A stretch of 64,000 nucleotides of DNA, from positions 1-64,000 of the forward strand of contig NZ_WMIC01000009.1 of the NCBI RefSeq assembly GCF_009711135.1. The letters are read 5' to 3'. Below are positions 52,688-62,103 of the stretch, one piece after another. The stretch's first letter is position 1; every line of letters starts with the position of its first letter. A program made the translations under genes and the position numbers. A model generated the notes under the pieces. It was not told where the DNA came from. It ran no database searches and saw only the letters and a list, made by a program, of their open reading frames with translations. The DNA is from Flavobacterium sp. LC2016-01. Its GTDB lineage: Bacteria > Bacteroidota > Bacteroidia > Flavobacteriales > Flavobacteriaceae.

Positions 52688-53143
52688 TTAACTCAGTTTT
52701 TCTGAAACCTCTTTCAAAACTTTATTCCTTTCCAAAAGAAAATGAGTAAGATGTTTTTCCAAAAATAAAATATCAAAAAGTTCTCCGAACATTCCAAACG
52801 GCGTTTCGTATTGCAATATATCCTTCATAATTGTTACTCCATTTTCTTCTTCAAAAATATGCTCATGTCTGAAAGATTTGAATTTGCCTTTTTCCATTTC
52901 GTCTACAAAATAATCGTAGAGATTCATTTCGGGAATTCGGGTTTTATGTGTGAGATAAAAACCGAAATGTTTACCGCGCCAAGTCACCGTTTCATTTAAA
53001 TTGATCAAACCTGATGTCACTCCGGCAATTGCCTTTTCGTTTGTTGGACTTGCAGATTGCTGATGAATATCGATATTTCTTGAAGCATCAAAAACGATTT
53101 GTTTTGATGCTTTTATTTTGGTTGTGAGGTTTATAGTTGTCAT
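52688..53143 (-). CDS. SRPBCC-fold protein
   Basis: A 151-residue lipid-binding-type (START/Bet v1) fold protein: LTTKIKASKQIVFDASRNIDIHQQS at the start and FEEENGVTIMKDILQYETPFG. Such proteins bind hydrophobic ligands; none is assigned. Its ATG overlaps the stop of the upstream membrane SRPBCC gene by 4 bases. Confidence 0.82.
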   Translation of the reverse strand: MTTINLTTKIKASKQIVFDASRNIDIHQQSASPTNEKAIAGVTSGLINLNETVTWRGKHFGFYLTHKTRIPEMNLYDYFVDEMEKGKFKSFRHEHIFEEENGVTIMKDILQYETPFGMFGELFDILFLEKHLTHFLLERNKVLKEVSEKLS

Positions 53144-54093
53144 AATTCGTTTTCACTTCTTTCTTTAATAACTTTTAAAATATTATTCTGTATGTCTTTC
53201 ATAATCCACTCTCCCCAAACTCCGGCATAGGAATTAAAAGTAGTTTTCATTGAAAAATTACTGTAAAGAATTAGTTTGTATTGATGTTCATTTATTTTTT
53301 CTAATTCGTATGTACCGTTCAGCATATCAAAATATTCACCGCCAATCAAAATGTGTTCATCTAAAGTGGTTGAAGGAATTTCATAAGTATTGGCTTTTAT
53401 TTTAAATCGCATCAATTTTAAATCTTGGTATTCGGTTACTGTTTCATGAAAAATGAGTCCTTTTTCAAAAATGGCTTTTCGATAACCTCCAACTTCTTGT
53501 TTGTTCAGTTCGGCTTTGATTGGTTTAGGAAACCCGAGCCATTTTGTTAAAGTTGAAGAATCTTCTGTTGCTTTTATTTCTCTGACAGAAGTTACATTTT
53601 GCCATATTTTAGCTTTGTTGCTATTTATTATAATTGAAGTGTAAGTTTTAAAAACTTCAGGGTTTCTTGGAATACTGTTTTCTATTGGTCCAATGATAAA
53701 AGGAAGCAAAATAAGAATTGACAGATTTAAATTTTCCTGCTTTTTAGATTTCTTTATTTTAAAATATCCCGCAATTAATCCTCCAATAGAACTAAAAATC
53801 AAGAATAAAGGTGAAATCATGATCCAGCATGCCCAGCCTTCGAGACCAATTAAGATAGTTAAAAAAATGACCGATATAATGGGCACCCATGGCGCAAAAA
53901 ACCGATAGTTCATCGATTTTACTTTTTCGATGCTTGAGTAATAAATGGTAAGCGCTCCGATCACAGAGGGAACTAACAAGAAAAAAGTCCAAGTCATTAC
54001 AGATAAAAAATCATCAAAAATAGAAGCACCAAATATGATTCGGAGTAATAAGGCAAACAAAATAGGGATTATAATTATTTTTAAATATTTCAT
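53140..54093 (-). CDS. Membrane protein with C-terminal SRPBCC-like domain
   Basis: A 317-residue protein with four to five N-terminal helices (up to residue ~150) and a soluble C-terminal part (~160-317) with EYFDMLNGTYELEKINEHQYKL, typical of an SRPBCC domain attached to the membrane. With the cytosolic SRPBCC gene next to it (4-base overlap), a lipid-handling function is likely but unproven. Confidence 0.7.
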   Translation of the reverse strand: MKYLKIIIIPILFALLLRIIFGASIFDDFLSVMTWTFFLLVPSVIGALTIYYSSIEKVKSMNYRFFAPWVPIISVIFLTILIGLEGWACWIMISPLFLIFSSIGGLIAGYFKIKKSKKQENLNLSILILLPFIIGPIENSIPRNPEVFKTYTSIIINSNKAKIWQNVTSVREIKATEDSSTLTKWLGFPKPIKAELNKQEVGGYRKAIFEKGLIFHETVTEYQDLKLMRFKIKANTYEIPSTTLDEHILIGGEYFDMLNGTYELEKINEHQYKLILYSNFSMKTTFNSYAGVWGEWIMKDIQNNILKVIKERSENEL

Positions 54094-54163
54094 TGGTTAG
54101 TTTTTCTTTAGTTAAATTTTAAAAAGCATTTAAGGGAATTAGCAGCAAACTATATTTTACAAT

Positions 54164-54946
54164 TTAAAAAGTATTTTTTTTCTCAATATCAGGAAGTGCT
54201 TCATCAATTCTTCTTGCCAGTTCCGGCAGTTTGATAGTCGGAACTGCTGGAAATAAATGATGTTCTAAATGATAAAACATGCTAAATGTGATTTTGTTTT
54301 TCCACGTTCCACGTTGTGTTCTCGCAAATTCTGGAGATTCTTCTGTATCATGATGCACCGTCCAAACCGCGAAAAAAGCCATTAGAAATTCGGCGAAAAC
54401 CATAATTATTACATGATAAATCAAAAAATGGATTTGAAAATAAAAAATAAGGAATGTTACGACAGCAATAGAAACTAATTCTAAAATTACATTCTTCACA
54501 TAATTTCTATTTCCTTTCTGCAATGTTACTTTATGAATCAAAAACATATGAATTGGGCCATAAAGTATAGCGCCGTACCAAGTCATGCGAGCTGATTTTC
54601 CTTCATAATCTTCTTCAGACAAACAATATTTATGGTGACGAATATGATTGAATTTGACGGCATGAATTGAAACCATCAATAAAATACTGTTCGTATACAA
54701 AGTAAACCACGTTAAAAGTTTATTTGTCCCTAATGAATTATGAAAACCATTATGAACTTGTCTCAAACCAGCTAAAAAGAAAAAAGCTGAAAAAGGCAGA
54801 GCAAATAAATAATATCCAAAATAGGCCAGCGTCATAGAAATTAAAAACCACGGAATGGTCAAGTTGTTTTCAATCAGCATTTCTTTAAAGCTGAGCGTTT
54901 TTAAATCTTTCCACTGCACTTTTTTGAGTATTTCCTGATGTGTCAT
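54164..54946 (-). CDS. Fatty acid desaturase-family protein
   Basis: A 260-residue membrane enzyme with the three His boxes HNGFH (~66), HIRHH (~104) and YHLEHHLFP (~234), plus HHDTEES, which bind the di-iron centre. It introduces double bonds in acyl chains or hydroxylates related substrates. It follows a hairpin at 54970, so it may have its own promoter or be only partly read through from the upstream genes. Confidence 0.88.
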   Translation of the reverse strand: MTHQEILKKVQWKDLKTLSFKEMLIENNLTIPWFLISMTLAYFGYYLFALPFSAFFFLAGLRQVHNGFHNSLGTNKLLTWFTLYTNSILLMVSIHAVKFNHIRHHKYCLSEEDYEGKSARMTWYGAILYGPIHMFLIHKVTLQKGNRNYVKNVILELVSIAVVTFLIFYFQIHFLIYHVIIMVFAEFLMAFFAVWTVHHDTEESPEFARTQRGTWKNKITFSMFYHLEHHLFPAVPTIKLPELARRIDEALPDIEKKNTF

Positions 54947-54969
54947 TTTTTATGATTTAGGATTTTTTT

Positions 54970-55016
54970 AAAACCCGACAGTCCCGAAGCCTCGGGATAA
55001 AACCTGTCGGGTTTGT
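54970..55016 (-). terminator. Terminator-like hairpin between small membrane protein and desaturase genes
   Basis: Outer stem AACCCGACA / TGTCGGGTT with an inner CCCGA..TCGGG stem; on the minus strand it ends in TTTTAAAAAAA. The stem equals that of the gcvP terminator. It may attenuate transcription into the desaturase gene. Confidence 0.65.
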
Positions 55017-55024
55017 TTATGATG

Positions 55025-55411
55025 TTAAGCTTTAAAAACTAATCTTTCTTCTCTTTGAGCTTCTTTAGCTTTTCTTTTTCCTCTAAAAAAGAAATATAAA
55101 TTGAAGAATAACATGATACCAAGATAGATAGAAAATCCTCCAATTTTATAACTTAATCTTTCAATTAATTCCTGATAACTGTCCTGATTTAATTGCAATT
55201 CTAAAATCATTAAGGCAAAACCAATATTTAAAAGATAGAATCCGGTTTCAAAAAGTTTGTTGGTTGCCTCAGCGATTTCTTCGCGTCCTTTAAAGATGTC
55301 AAGCATAAAGATTTTCCCATTTTTAAAAAGCGTTTTAGAAACATAATAAGTTAAAAATAAAGCAACTGGCAGATAAATTCCGTAACCGATTAAGATTTTT
55401 GTAGTTTCCAT
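55025..55411 (-). CDS. Small membrane protein, paralog A
   Basis: A 128-residue protein with three helices (~6-25, ~58-75, ~92-112) and a basic/acidic tail. It aligns with the preceding gene's product: GYGIYLPVALF, NGKIFMLDIF and FYLLNIGFALMIL match GYLIYLSITTF, NGNIYVADLI and YYLLNIGYCAMTL. Function unknown. Confidence 0.7.
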   Translation of the reverse strand: METTKILIGYGIYLPVALFLTYYVSKTLFKNGKIFMLDIFKGREEIAEATNKLFETGFYLLNIGFALMILELQLNQDSYQELIERLSYKIGGFSIYLGIMLFFNLYFFFRGKRKAKEAQREERLVFKA

Positions 55412-55430
55412 GATATTAGGGTTTTAGTTG

Positions 55431-55778
55431 TTATTTGATTAATTTTTGAATGTATTTTGTTATAATTAAAATGTTGAAATAATGCAGAACTGAAATAATA
55501 AAAATTATGACAGCTGTTTTTATACAAATTGTTTCAATCAACTGAGTGGAAGAAATAATTTTTTGCCAGGAAATCAATGTCATGGCGCAATAACCAATAT
55601 TTAAAAGATAATAAGCCAAAAGCAAAACCTGATTTATTTTTTGACAAACGTCAGCGTGATTTGGGATTAAATCTGCAACATAAATATTTCCGTTGTTATA
55701 GCAGATTTTTCCAACTTTTAGAATGATGAAAGTTGTAATGCTGAGGTAAATTAAATACCCAATAATGTTGAAGTTCAT
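55431..55778 (-). CDS. Small membrane protein, paralog B
   Basis: A 115-residue protein with three helices, clearly homologous to the next gene's product over its whole length. The start is taken at the ATG at 55778, 2 bases after the stop of the upstream gene; a TTG at 55784 is also open. Function unknown. Confidence 0.65.
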   Translation of the reverse strand: MNFNIIGYLIYLSITTFIILKVGKICYNNGNIYVADLIPNHADVCQKINQVLLLAYYLLNIGYCAMTLISWQKIISSTQLIETICIKTAVIIFIISVLHYFNILIITKYIQKLIK

Positions 55779-55780
55779 AA

Positions 55781-56224
55781 TCAAAGCAGTTTATAATGAC
55801 CAATTAAATTATAAATGAACAACGCTGAATTTACTGTTGCAAACAATACAAAAAGTGTATTCATAAAATAGCTCCCAATTTTGAAAATTATTTTCTGCGG
55901 AATTTGATACATTGGATAATATGCAATTTGAGTAGCAACTTTTCCAACCCAATACAAAGCAATTAGCCCCGTTAATGCAACTGCCAAAGCTGATTGTTCC
56001 TTTAGTTCAGTTGTAAATACGATCGCAATTAATCCAAAACAAAAGTTTAGTCCTTGAATATATCTTCCGTAAGTTTTAGCAATTTCCTGATTTAGGGGTT
56101 TGAGTTGTTTTACATCATTGTACCAGTCAAAAACGTTGTGACGGATATATGGGTAAATAAGTGCTGTAAATATTTGGCCAATTCCGCTTAGAATTATTAA
56201 CCAATTTGGTATAGTTAAGTTCAT
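55781..56224 (-). CDS. Small membrane protein, four helices
   Basis: A 147-residue protein with four predicted helices and a conserved-looking loop RHNVFDWYNDVKQLKPLNQEI between helices 1 and 2. The start is the ATG at 56224 (MNLTIPNWLIILSGIGQIF); the extension to 56281 is not protein-like. Function unknown. Confidence 0.65.
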   Translation of the reverse strand: MNLTIPNWLIILSGIGQIFTALIYPYIRHNVFDWYNDVKQLKPLNQEIAKTYGRYIQGLNFCFGLIAIVFTTELKEQSALAVALTGLIALYWVGKVATQIAYYPMYQIPQKIIFKIGSYFMNTLFVLFATVNSALFIYNLIGHYKLL

Positions 56225-56284
56225 AGTTTTTGTTTTTTTTAAATTTTTTTTGATGATTTTGAGAATAAAAACCTGGAACAATTT

Positions 56285-56638
56285 TCAGTGTACAAAGCCT
56301 AAATTCTCGCACTTAATCAATATTCGATAAAAGTAAATTGCAGTGATATTCGGGATTATAGTTACGAAAACGACTTGTAAAAAATCATTCCACATAATGT
56401 AATTAAAAAACGAAAAAAGAATAATGGCATTTAAAACTGTAACTGCCCAATAGGTTTTTATCTGTTTTTTAATTTTATAATTATTTGGTTTTGGAAAGAT
56501 TTCAATAGTTAAAAAAATTGCCGAAATTGATTGTATTAGGAGTAAAAAAGCTTGTCCCGCAAAACGTAAATAACATGTTAAATAGAATAGAAAGCAGATT
56601 ATTATAGCTAATTTATTGATGCTTTTTGTTGGTATCAT
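56285..56638 (-). CDS. Small membrane protein, four helices
   Basis: A 117-residue very hydrophobic protein, first gene after the regulator gene and preceded by the AAACTTTCA-N8-TGAAAGTTT dyad (56655-56680). It has no recognised motif. Confidence 0.6.
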   Translation of the reverse strand: MIPTKSINKLAIIICFLFYLTCYLRFAGQAFLLLIQSISAIFLTIEIFPKPNNYKIKKQIKTYWAVTVLNAIILFSFFNYIMWNDFLQVVFVTIIPNITAIYFYRILIKCENLGFVH

Positions 56639-56654
56639 AGTTATTGATTGTTTT

Positions 56655-56680
56655 AAACTTTCAGAAAAAATTGAAAGTTT
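56655..56680. promoter_or_regulatory. GbsR/MarR-type operator candidate, copy 2 (perfect dyad)
   Basis: AAACTTTCA-N8-TGAAAGTTT, a perfect 9+9 inverted repeat, lies 17 bases upstream of the first small membrane protein gene. The same motif with the same 8-base spacer is found at 57223-57248 before the regulator. It could also act as a weak terminator for the regulator gene, but the shared sequence favours an operator. Confidence 0.6.
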
Positions 56681-56693
56681 TGATTAAATTTTT

Positions 56694-57197
56694 TTATTTC
56701 ATGATTTTGATAATCAATTTTCCTAACCAGTTTTCATTGAATTCAGTCATTTTATCTAACATATTATCTGCTTTTAAAACGAAATCATATAGCTTAGTGG
56801 TCTGATCCACAAAATGTTTTTCTTCTTCCGAATCTTTGGCTTCGATGGTCGAAACTTCTTTTAAGATTTTAAGTGCCGGTTTGATTTCTCTTTTACTTCT
56901 TTCTCTTGAAATTTTAGCGGCCAATTCATCTAAATCTTTTTCAGCAGTAAAAAATTCTCTTCTTTCCCCAGCTTTAAATTCTTTATATACAATTCCCCAA
57001 TCCATTAATGCCCTAATGTTCATGCTGGCATTTCCGCGGGAAATCTGTAATTCTTCCATTATATCTTCCATAGAAACAGCTTCGTTTGAGACCATTAATA
57101 AAGCGTGGATTTGTGCCATCGTTTTATTAATTCCCCATTGAGAACCTAATGCTCCCCAGGTTTGTACAAACTTATTTTTTGCTTCTTTGAATTCCAT
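56694..57197 (-). CDS. GbsR/MarR-family transcriptional regulator
   Basis: A 167-residue winged-helix regulator: KTMAQIHALLMVSNEAVSMEDIMEELQISRGNASMNIRALMDWG is the DNA-binding part (~26-70), with a C-terminal helical dimer part. In Bacillus GbsR senses choline or betaine precursors. Ligand unknown here. It is divergent from the antiporter gene and precedes the membrane-protein unit. Confidence 0.88.
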   Translation of the reverse strand: MEFKEAKNKFVQTWGALGSQWGINKTMAQIHALLMVSNEAVSMEDIMEELQISRGNASMNIRALMDWGIVYKEFKAGERREFFTAEKDLDELAAKISRERSKREIKPALKILKEVSTIEAKDSEEEKHFVDQTTKLYDFVLKADNMLDKMTEFNENWLGKLIIKIMK

Positions 57198-57222
57198 GGA
57201 TCAAATGTAAGTAAAAGTTTTT

Positions 57223-57248
57223 AAACTTTCAAAAATAATTGAAACTTA
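57223..57248. promoter_or_regulatory. GbsR/MarR-type operator candidate, copy 1
   Basis: AAACTTTCA-N8-TGAAACTTA lies 25 bases before the regulator's start codon and ~87 bases before the divergent antiporter gene. It shares the half-site and 8-base spacing with 56655-56680. Confidence 0.6.
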
Positions 57249-57334: not shown

Positions 57335-58597
57335 ATGGAATTATACTACACCTTTTCAGTACTTATTGTATTGGCTTCTTTCTTCGCCTATTTAAATTTA
57401 AGATTTTTAAAACTTCCGGGAACTATTGGAATTATGATTATTGCAATGTTGGTTTCAGTAGGAATTCGTCTTTTAGGAGATTCTTATTTTCCTGCTACTA
57501 CCAAACATTTTTTTGATTTGATAAAAGAATTTGATTTCAACGAAATCTTAATGGGAGCTATGTTGAACTTTCTTTTGTTCGCAGGCGCACTGCACGTAAA
57601 CATGTCAGATCTCAAAGAACAGAAAGTGCCGATTATGATTTATTCTACAGTAAGTGTAGTATTGTCAGCCTTAATTATTTCTCTTTTACTTTATTATGTC
57701 GCACCACTTTTAGGAATAAAAATCCCTTATATATTTTGTTTGGTTTTTGGAACATTGATTTCTCCAACCGATCCAATCGTAGTTTTGGGCGTTTTAAAAG
57801 AAGCAAAAGTTCCGAAGAGAATCGAAACCAAAATTGTTGGTGAATCATTATTTAATGATGGAGTTGCGGTAGTCATGTTTGCTGTTGTTTTGAAAATGGC
57901 AACCGATCCAACTTTTGATGTAAGTTTTGGTTCTATTGCTTGGCTTTTTGCAAAAGAAGGAATTGGCGGACTTTTACTAGGAGCTGTCTTTGGATTTAGC
58001 GCATCAAAGGTTATGAAGAGAATTGACGATTATAAAGTCTCGGTTTTAATAACGCTTTCCATCGTAATGGGAGGATTTTTGATTGCTCAAAGTTTACACG
58101 TTTCTAGTCCGCTAGCAATGGTTGTTGCTGGATTGATTATTGGAAATTACGGTAAAAAAGTCGCGATGAGCGAAGTAACTAAAGATTATTTAGGGAAATT
58201 CTGGGAACTTATAGATGAAATATTAAATGCTATTTTATTCTTATTTATTGGTTTCGAATTACTATTGCTGCCCGATTTAAATAAACAATTAGTAACAGGT
58301 TTTGTTGCTATTTTTATCGTTTTATTTTCGAGAATTGCCTCTATAGTTTTACCGTGGAAATTCTTCGATATATTCAAGTTTTTCGGAATCAGATCGGCTT
58401 ACAACAAAGGTTCTTTGATGGTTTTGGTTTGGGGAGGAATTCGTGGCGGAGTTTCTATCGCTTTGGTACTTTCAATGCCAGAAGGAGAATATAAAAACCT
58501 GCTTTTAGAAGTCACTTATATTGTGGTATTATTTTCAATTGTTGTGCAAGGCTTAACTGTTGGGAAATTAGCGAAAAGAGTTTTGGAGAAAGAGTAA
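57335..58597 (+). CDS. CPA1-type cation:proton antiporter (NhaP-like)
   Basis: A 420-residue protein with about 12 helices and the CPA1 motifs FLLFAGALHVN, FGTLISPTDPIVVLGVLKEA (the ion-binding region) and GESLFNDGVAVV. It exchanges sodium or potassium for protons and helps with pH or salt stress. It is divergent from the GbsR-type regulator, with the copy-1 operator between them. Confidence 0.92.
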   Translation: MELYYTFSVLIVLASFFAYLNLRFLKLPGTIGIMIIAMLVSVGIRLLGDSYFPATTKHFFDLIKEFDFNEILMGAMLNFLLFAGALHVNMSDLKEQKVPIMIYSTVSVVLSALIISLLLYYVAPLLGIKIPYIFCLVFGTLISPTDPIVVLGVLKEAKVPKRIETKIVGESLFNDGVAVVMFAVVLKMATDPTFDVSFGSIAWLFAKEGIGGLLLGAVFGFSASKVMKRIDDYKVSVLITLSIVMGGFLIAQSLHVSSPLAMVVAGLIIGNYGKKVAMSEVTKDYLGKFWELIDEILNAILFLFIGFELLLLPDLNKQLVTGFVAIFIVLFSRIASIVLPWKFFDIFKFFGIRSAYNKGSLMVLVWGGIRGGVSIALVLSMPEGEYKNLLLEVTYIVVLFSIVVQGLTVGKLAKRVLEKE

Positions 58598-61587: not shown

Positions 61588-61875
61588 TCATAATTTAAAT
61601 TTCTTCGTATCCTGAAAAGTATTCCAAAAACGAAGTAATTCTAAATTAGTGTTTTCGATACGGTAATAAAGTGAAATTTGTTTGGTAATGACAATTTTAT
61701 AAACGCTTTTGAAGTTTGTTTTTATAAATAAAACATTGTCATTTTTTAAAAGTTCTATAGTGGTATTTACTTTTTCGATGAAACTAAGAGCAACTCTTTC
61801 TGACCATTCTGCTTCTAAATAATCAATGTTGTTCCAAAAGTCTTTTTTAGCTTGTGGAGCCCAAATTACATTCAT
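61588..61875 (-). CDS. RelE/ParE-family toxin
   Basis: A 95-residue protein with the ParE/RelE pattern: WAPQAKKDFWNNIDYLEAEW at the start, YKIVI and LYYRIENTNLELLRFWNTFQDTKK at the end. It should inhibit gyrase or cleave mRNA. It starts directly at the end of the antitoxin gene, with no gap. Confidence 0.85.
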   Translation of the reverse strand: MNVIWAPQAKKDFWNNIDYLEAEWSERVALSFIEKVNTTIELLKNDNVLFIKTNFKSVYKIVITKQISLYYRIENTNLELLRFWNTFQDTKKFKL

Positions 61876-62103
61876 TTATTTAAAATATTTTGAATAACGA
61901 TTTTTGGTTTCTTCCATTACAACATCATGCTGAATTCCTTCATTATTGTCTAAAGAATAAATCGCCTCATTTATATTGTTTTTTTGCTCTTCTGAAAGGC
62001 TTTCTTTGGATTGAATTAAATCCACAATTTCCTGAATTAAATCGGGATTATCAATGTCTAAAACAATTTTTGCCAGTTCTATTTTAGAAGTTTGAATGTT
62101 CAT
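61876..62103 (-). CDS. Antitoxin of a ParE/RelE-type module
   Basis: A 75-residue protein with an acidic, helix-rich N-terminus (KIELAKIVLDIDNPDLIQEIVDLI region) and a C-terminal basic tail, typical of antitoxins that have no separate DNA-binding domain. It is the first gene of the pair. Confidence 0.8.
   Translation of the reverse strand: MNIQTSKIELAKIVLDIDNPDLIQEIVDLIQSKESLSEEQKNNINEAIYSLDNNEGIQHDVVMEETKNRYSKYFK

Follow-up and report, generated by a model that had tools for sequence, protein, structure and literature searches.

Two short inverted repeats frame the gene of a GbsR-type regulator in a Flavobacterium contig, and they raise the question of which protein recognises them and which genes are controlled from them. 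The window, meaning the whole stretch of 64,000 nucleotides analysed here, belongs to a genome of 5.24 Mb in 34 contigs. Our reading, to which we assign a probability of about 0.8, is that the GbsR-type repressor whose gene lies between the upstream dyad (O1) and the downstream dyad (O2) uses both as operators. O1 would serve autorepression, and at O2 the following gene cassette would be repressed through a roadblock or through occlusion of a non-canonical promoter.

The regulator and its two flanking dyads

The pattern AAACTTTCA-N8-TGAAA(G/C)TT was found at 57223-57248 (O1) and at 56655-56680 (O2), both on the reverse strand, as is the regulator gene between them. O1 is the candidate operator over the -33 element of the regulator promoter, has 16 matching positions of the 18 in its arms and ends 25 nt before the regulator ATG (57197). 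O2, the candidate operator before the cassette, carries CTG in place of TTG and is separated by 16 nt from the ATG (56638) of the first membrane-protein ORF. The sequence-only reading had placed the same half-sites, with an 8-base spacer, before the regulator and before this membrane-protein gene and had called the second site a perfect dyad; both sites are indeed there, and the 9+9 symmetry of O2 around its 8-base spacer was confirmed.

In the window the exact pattern is confined to O1 and O2, which appear as three match rows because the perfect dyad O2 matches on both strands. With up to three mismatches the window held 10 matches against 3.45 expected, a number reached in 2 of 100 shuffles. 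The genome-wide motif search suggested in the sequence-only reading returned, at zero mismatches, the two flanking sites alone in 5.24 Mb. Allowing two mismatches gave 12 forward and 14 reverse matches genome-wide, compared with 3 and 5 for a reversed control pattern. The off-locus matches at this threshold correspond to 16 distinct places, and a wider regulon is unsupported since 14 of the 16 lie in ORFs. One of the two intergenic places (on L232) is situated 75 bp before an ORF and has a broken right arm, the other (on L242) has convergent genes on either side. Five off-locus sites were seen in relatives, three in ORFs, one overlapping an ORF end (L184) and one intergenic (L181). The place at L242:1474-1498 of the own genome is a near-perfect dyad of similar sequence between the two convergent genes and is perhaps a terminator.

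The regulator gene (56694..57197, reverse strand) encodes a protein of 167 aa, 98% identical to that of Flavobacterium sp. LHD-80 and assigned by sequence and fold to the GbsR type within the MarR superfamily. Pfam MarR_2 matched it with 31.5 bits against a cut-off of 27 (2e-07), and both the Pfam match and the fold search identify a winged helix-turn-helix of the MarR superfamily. A profile built from 39 orthologs gave MJ223 (PDB 1KU9) as the best solved relative with 9.3e-24 over profile positions 3-151, and hence homology over the whole length to the template used for modelling GbsR. The AlphaFold model of the regulator had a mean pLDDT of 89; Foldseek placed 1ku9 first by E-value (1.3e-09, TM 0.58-0.62), with 5jbr reaching a higher TM-score. 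The GbsR-type assignment made earlier from the sequence is thus borne out by profile and by fold. On the CudC equivalog model NF047500 the protein scored 52.1 bits, below the curated cut-off of 218; the regulator is GbsR-type but not CudC. In a paralog check within its own genome it matched itself alone.

No betaine synthesis or Opu transporter genes were present among the Pfam matches of the ten window proteins around the regulator. The gene neighbourhood of the osmostress group was not found here, and the cassette families of relatives (ten representatives) are of other kinds. Excerpts of PMC6207618 describe, as a feature of this osmostress GbsR/OpuAR/OpcR group, an aromatic cage close to the linker in which choline or glycine betaine is bound.

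Conservation of the dyads with the regulator

Conservation was followed in 116 loci, consisting of the window, 80 Flavobacterium loci kept from 364 confirmed stretches (regulators 90-98% identical) and 35 loci from other genera, out of 37 family genomes with the regulator (44-73% identical). Two genomes were left out of this set: G075, where the gene lies at the contig start and O1 is not visible (O2 15/18), and G139, with a short contig (sites 17/18 and 16/18). A further 27 genus loci (L090-L116), in which both sites scored 16-18, were excluded because they are possibly repeats of the same species. The stop positions of L164 and L172 are slightly misplaced, which affects only their distances from the stop.

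Both dyads were present on either side of the regulator gene in all 116 loci, and the order O1-regulator-O2 was identical throughout. TTTCA and TGAAA of the core TTTCA-N8-TGAAA were invariant at O1 and O2 in every locus. O1 scored 15-18 of 18 in all cases and O2 in 115, the remaining O2 scoring 13; none of 580 control windows of 160 bp taken from the same loci exceeded 14/18, and 13-14 was reached in 16 of them. In the 35 other-genera loci the commonest base had a mean frequency of 0.97 over the arms of O1 and 0.90 over those of O2, compared with 0.43-0.64 in the measured flanks.

The motif was then compared with the regulator genome by genome. A genus sample of 61 genomes had the regulator in 28 and the motif (at most one mismatch) in 29, with 28 in common; the single motif genome without regulator (G036) has its site inside an ORF. 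In a family sample of 199 genomes the regulator was found in 39 and the motif, at the same threshold, in 37, with 35 in common, and the sites in the two motif genomes without regulator are located inside an ORF (G110) or overlap an ORF end (G125). The four family regulator genomes without a motif at this threshold carry weaker sites, scoring 16 and 15 in G255 and G178 and 15 and 15 in G203, while in the fourth, G075, O2 scored 15 and O1 lies beyond the contig end. The reversed control pattern matched in 4 of 61 genus and 6 of 199 family genomes. Two regulator genomes have an extra off-locus site, inside an ORF in G079 and intergenic in G056. DUF2071 proteins, one of the cassette families, occur at the regulator locus in 16 genus genomes and elsewhere too; they are present in 12 of the 33 genus genomes without regulator, and since all 12 are without the motif, the motif accompanies the regulator and not the cassette. 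The epimerase of the cassettes was found in 17 of 61 genus genomes, always within about 3 kb of the regulator. Taking the genome-wide counts, the control windows and the co-occurrence into consideration, a chance origin of the dyads is ruled out.

A profile search of 296 Bacteroidota genomes found relatives in 95, and 34 distant loci were examined, 20 of them of ortholog type (166-170 aa) and 14 with other GbsR-type proteins (169-214 aa). At the ortholog-type loci O1 scored at least 13 in 18 of 20; downstream DNA is missing at L198, and of the other 19 loci 11 reached this score at O2. The weakest of these scores rest on position too, because 13-14 was also seen among the control windows. The expectation of the sequence-only reading that orthologs carry the dyads upstream holds for O1 in all 116 loci and gives way in part among the distant orthologs, of which 2 of 20 were without O1 and 8 of 19 without O2. 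At the 14 other GbsR-type loci no dyads were found, the best score being 11 on either side. Bacteroidota also contain a second, longer GbsR-type group (181-214 aa; L218-L228, L230, L231) without these dyads. At several of the 14 other loci, those of the longer group included, the gene that follows looks by eye like yraN.

The earlier proposal of a candidate operator for the GbsR-type regulator is supported by the dyads framing the gene at every one of the 116 loci, by their co-occurrence with it and by their absence from 14 of 14 distant GbsR-type loci. The overlap of O1 with the -33 element, the missing promoter features at O2 and the variability of the downstream genes go beyond that sequence-only reading. 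Both dyads are very probably the landing sites of the regulator that they flank, because they were kept with its gene where the genes behind were exchanged.

Promoter elements and competing explanations

The TTG of O1 at dyad positions 16-18, the predicted -33 element (57230..57232, reverse strand), was present in 110 of 116 loci. It is followed in the window by TACATTTG (57202..57209, reverse strand), the predicted -7 element of the form TAnnTTTG, for which the box position was taken from PMC9723704; according to excerpts of that paper TAnnTTTG lies at -12 to -5 in F. psychrophilum and leaderless mRNAs make up 5.5%. An exact TAnnTTTG was found at offset 37-39 from O1 in 113 of 116 loci, in 108 of these 113 with TTG 18-22 nt upstream, so that O1 contains the predicted -33 TTG of a Bacteroidota sigma-A promoter (TTG at -33, TAnnTTTG at -7). 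The predicted +1 is the A of the regulator ATG (57197 in the window) in 107 of the 115 loci with a scorable box. We therefore predict a leaderless repressor mRNA, as TAnnTTTG at its fixed distance puts +1 on this A. A second exact TAnnTTTG inside the O1 spacer, seen in 82 of 116 loci and preceded by TTG at 18-22 nt in just 3, could add a second start and a leadered mRNA.

O2 reads CTG in 106 of 116 loci and TTG in 10. A canonical Bacteroidota sigma-A promoter was sought at O2 in the 116 loci and not found, and exact TAnnTTTG was present in 0 of 116 at offsets from -60 to +59. The one-mismatch boxes at offset 37 from O2 (n=48) contain the next start codon (47 ATG, 1 GTG), and transcription from them would thus begin inside the gene. 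Just 5' of O2 lies a TTTAA block (56684..56688 in the window, reverse strand), found at a distance of up to 14 nt in 103 of 116 loci, whereas for O1 this was the case in 17 of 116. From the end of O2 to the next ORF the gap is 12-17 nt in 95 of 116 loci, with exactly 16 nt in 58 of them. The notable feature is this constancy of O2 and its leader next to genes that turn over. Between the stop codon of the regulator and O2, a hairpin resembling a terminator and bearing a T-run is absent in the window and was seen in 11 of 127 loci (L150, L152, L153, L154, L167, L201, L203, L204, L206, L208 and L211), as judged by eye and without a shuffle control among 12 gaps of at least 28 nt, all of which fold below -4 kcal/mol and one of which (L049) is not terminator-like. 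In those lineages the T-run hairpins favour a promoter of the cassette's own and argue against read-through as the sole source of its transcription.

On these grounds the locus may work as follows. A repressor dimer on O1 would shut out RNA polymerase and so lead to autorepression, by occlusion because O1 covers the -33 element. A dimer on O2 would keep the cassette from being transcribed. It might stand as a roadblock in the path of polymerase that started at the repressor promoter, or it might occlude a non-canonical promoter of the cassette lying across O2. An inducer would release O1 and O2 alike. The positions, the conservation, the co-occurrence with the regulator and the promoter geometry, present at O1 and absent at O2, were observed directly; that the regulator binds and represses, that it does so at O2 by roadblock or by occlusion, and that an inducer exists we infer. 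A broader view, tentative and in our estimate clearly less likely than not, is that the leaderless repressor and its matched operators (O1 with TTG and merged with a promoter, O2 with CTG and stripped of one) would form a self-contained dock, at which lineages across Bacteroidota insert and exchange different sets of small membrane proteins and enzymes; these would be placed under one shared control and bring no regulatory DNA of their own.

Other explanations have to be weighed against operators of the flanked repressor. Two dimers might join O1 and O2 in a DNA loop, O2 then mainly strengthening repression at O1, and the distance between the starts of the two sites would agree with this, as it stays within 562-683 bp throughout the 116 loci and is exactly 568 bp in 47 of them. 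This distance, however, largely tracks the constant gene length, and the helical phase is spread. Since O2 also keeps its position before the start codon when the next gene changes, which points to a role for the cassette, we consider the loop unlikely. It is very unlikely that some other regulator, which happens to control the locus, binds the dyads. The link between the dyads and the neighbouring protein is drawn from sequence and would leave room for such a factor, but the motif is found in 28 of 28 genus and 35 of 39 family regulator genomes and in none of the 12 regulator-less genus genomes, of 33, that hold DUF2071 relatives.

Being inverted repeats, the dyads could also act as RNA hairpins, in the role of a terminator or attenuator, and O2 would sit in a read-through transcript. 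Of the 1044 pairing cells at each site, however, 77 were broken and 0 compensated at O1, and 61 were broken and 2 compensated at O2; outer arm changes that are almost never compensated fit a protein site and not an RNA stem. The O2 stem is moreover without a T-run after it, and O1 lies upstream of the predicted start. The uncompensated changes together with this position of O1 make the hairpin extremely improbable, and it was rejected. Arms of 9 bp around a spacer of 8 bp bring loxP to mind, and sites for site-specific recombination that move the gene or the cassette would suit these lengths as well as the variable cassette adjoining O2. Yet the spacers of O1 and O2 within one locus are equal in just 1 of 116 loci, the order O1-regulator-O2 is constant in all 116, and variability upstream of O1 equals that on the side of the cassette. 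Because the two spacers differ at 115 of 116 loci and rearranged forms were not seen, this explanation is hardly tenable and was likewise rejected.

The cassette and related systems

The cassette behind O2 (52688-56638, reverse strand) begins in the window with a membrane protein of 117 aa without Pfam match (56285..56638). It continues with a protein of 147 aa (55781..56224, the start codon being chosen over the TTG start of the ORF list), a relative of which is weakly DUF4345-like, two small membrane proteins of 115 aa (55431..55778) and 128 aa (55025..55411, DUF4149-like below the cut-off), a fatty acid desaturase (54164..54946, PF00487) and two proteins without Pfam match, of 317 aa (53140..54093) and 151 aa (52688..53143). 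We take the last of these, by eye, to be SRPBCC-like.

In relatives the first ORF after O2 fell into 12 clusters in the 80 Flavobacterium loci and 18 in the other-genera loci. The 80 Flavobacterium loci gave 67 distinct ordered gene lists, largely of recurring families, and the 25 loci whose regulator shares 95% identity or more with that of the window gave 24. These counts are approximate and maybe inflated, because the ORF caller used was a simple one that accepted only ATG starts and a minimum of 70 aa. Representative cassettes contain DUF2071, an epimerase with DUF1731, a DoxX-like protein, methyltransferases and family-less membrane proteins, as well as a DCC1-like protein below its cut-off. 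The idea that turnover sets the cassette apart was rejected: the lists of the first three genes numbered 41 distinct upstream of O1 and 39 downstream, and as the upstream side is equally variable, gene turnover belongs to the whole region. The divergent antiporter gene (57335-58597) was also discarded as a target, its cluster being the nearest upstream neighbour in just 24 of 80 loci. An operator that stays the same before a cassette that changes points to a single conserved signal for interchangeable membrane-associated functions, and the many membrane-associated cassette genes suggest that this signal may be a condition of the envelope or the membrane.

Autoregulated GbsR-type repressors with A/T-rich inverted-repeat operators are already known. 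GbsR of B. subtilis (gbsAB, opuB), as described in excerpts of PMC7396694, is like the regulator here a MarR repressor of the GbsR type with an A/T-rich inverted-repeat operator, and it is autoregulated, as we propose for the present case. It acts as a roadblock repressor, with operators downstream of the transcription start, a position that we liken to the arrangement found here. Its half-sites, however, are spaced by 4 bp and not by 8 bp, gbsR is divergent from its target whereas here the gene runs in the same direction as the cassette and has a site on either side, and the cassette of the window holds no osmoprotectant genes. According to the same excerpts OpcR (opuB, opuC) represses by occlusion, its operator overlapping a promoter upstream element and excluding polymerase, as proposed for O1; it differs in its operator and targets, and opcR is described there as not autoregulated without salt stress.

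GbsR-family members from Bacteroidetes, of the same family and phylum as the regulator here, are treated in PMC6207618, excerpts of which report no consistent gene neighbourhood for this sub-group and give no operator for its members. The closest solved relative, MJ223 of M. jannaschii (PDB 1KU9), is archaeal, and its operator is called unknown in excerpts of PMC7396694. Among the titles and abstract openings listed from the open-licence literature we found no description of the present operator sites, and the operator sequence, the 8-bp spacer, the flanking layout, the promoter-bearing and promoter-lacking twins and the variable cassette are apparently new to that literature. For the GbsR-type group in Bacteroidota, where the neighbourhood analysis excerpted from PMC6207618 gave no consistent function, a putative operator sequence, promoter overlap and target position can now be offered on sequence grounds. 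The locus is a small unit, testable in non-pathogenic Flavobacterium, with a natural pair of sites that share their half-sites and differ in promoter bases, a difference that should help to tell occlusion from roadblock. Elsewhere in the window, at 61588-62103, two adjacent short ORFs (95 and 75 aa) look by eye like a toxin-antitoxin pair of the ParE/RelE type.
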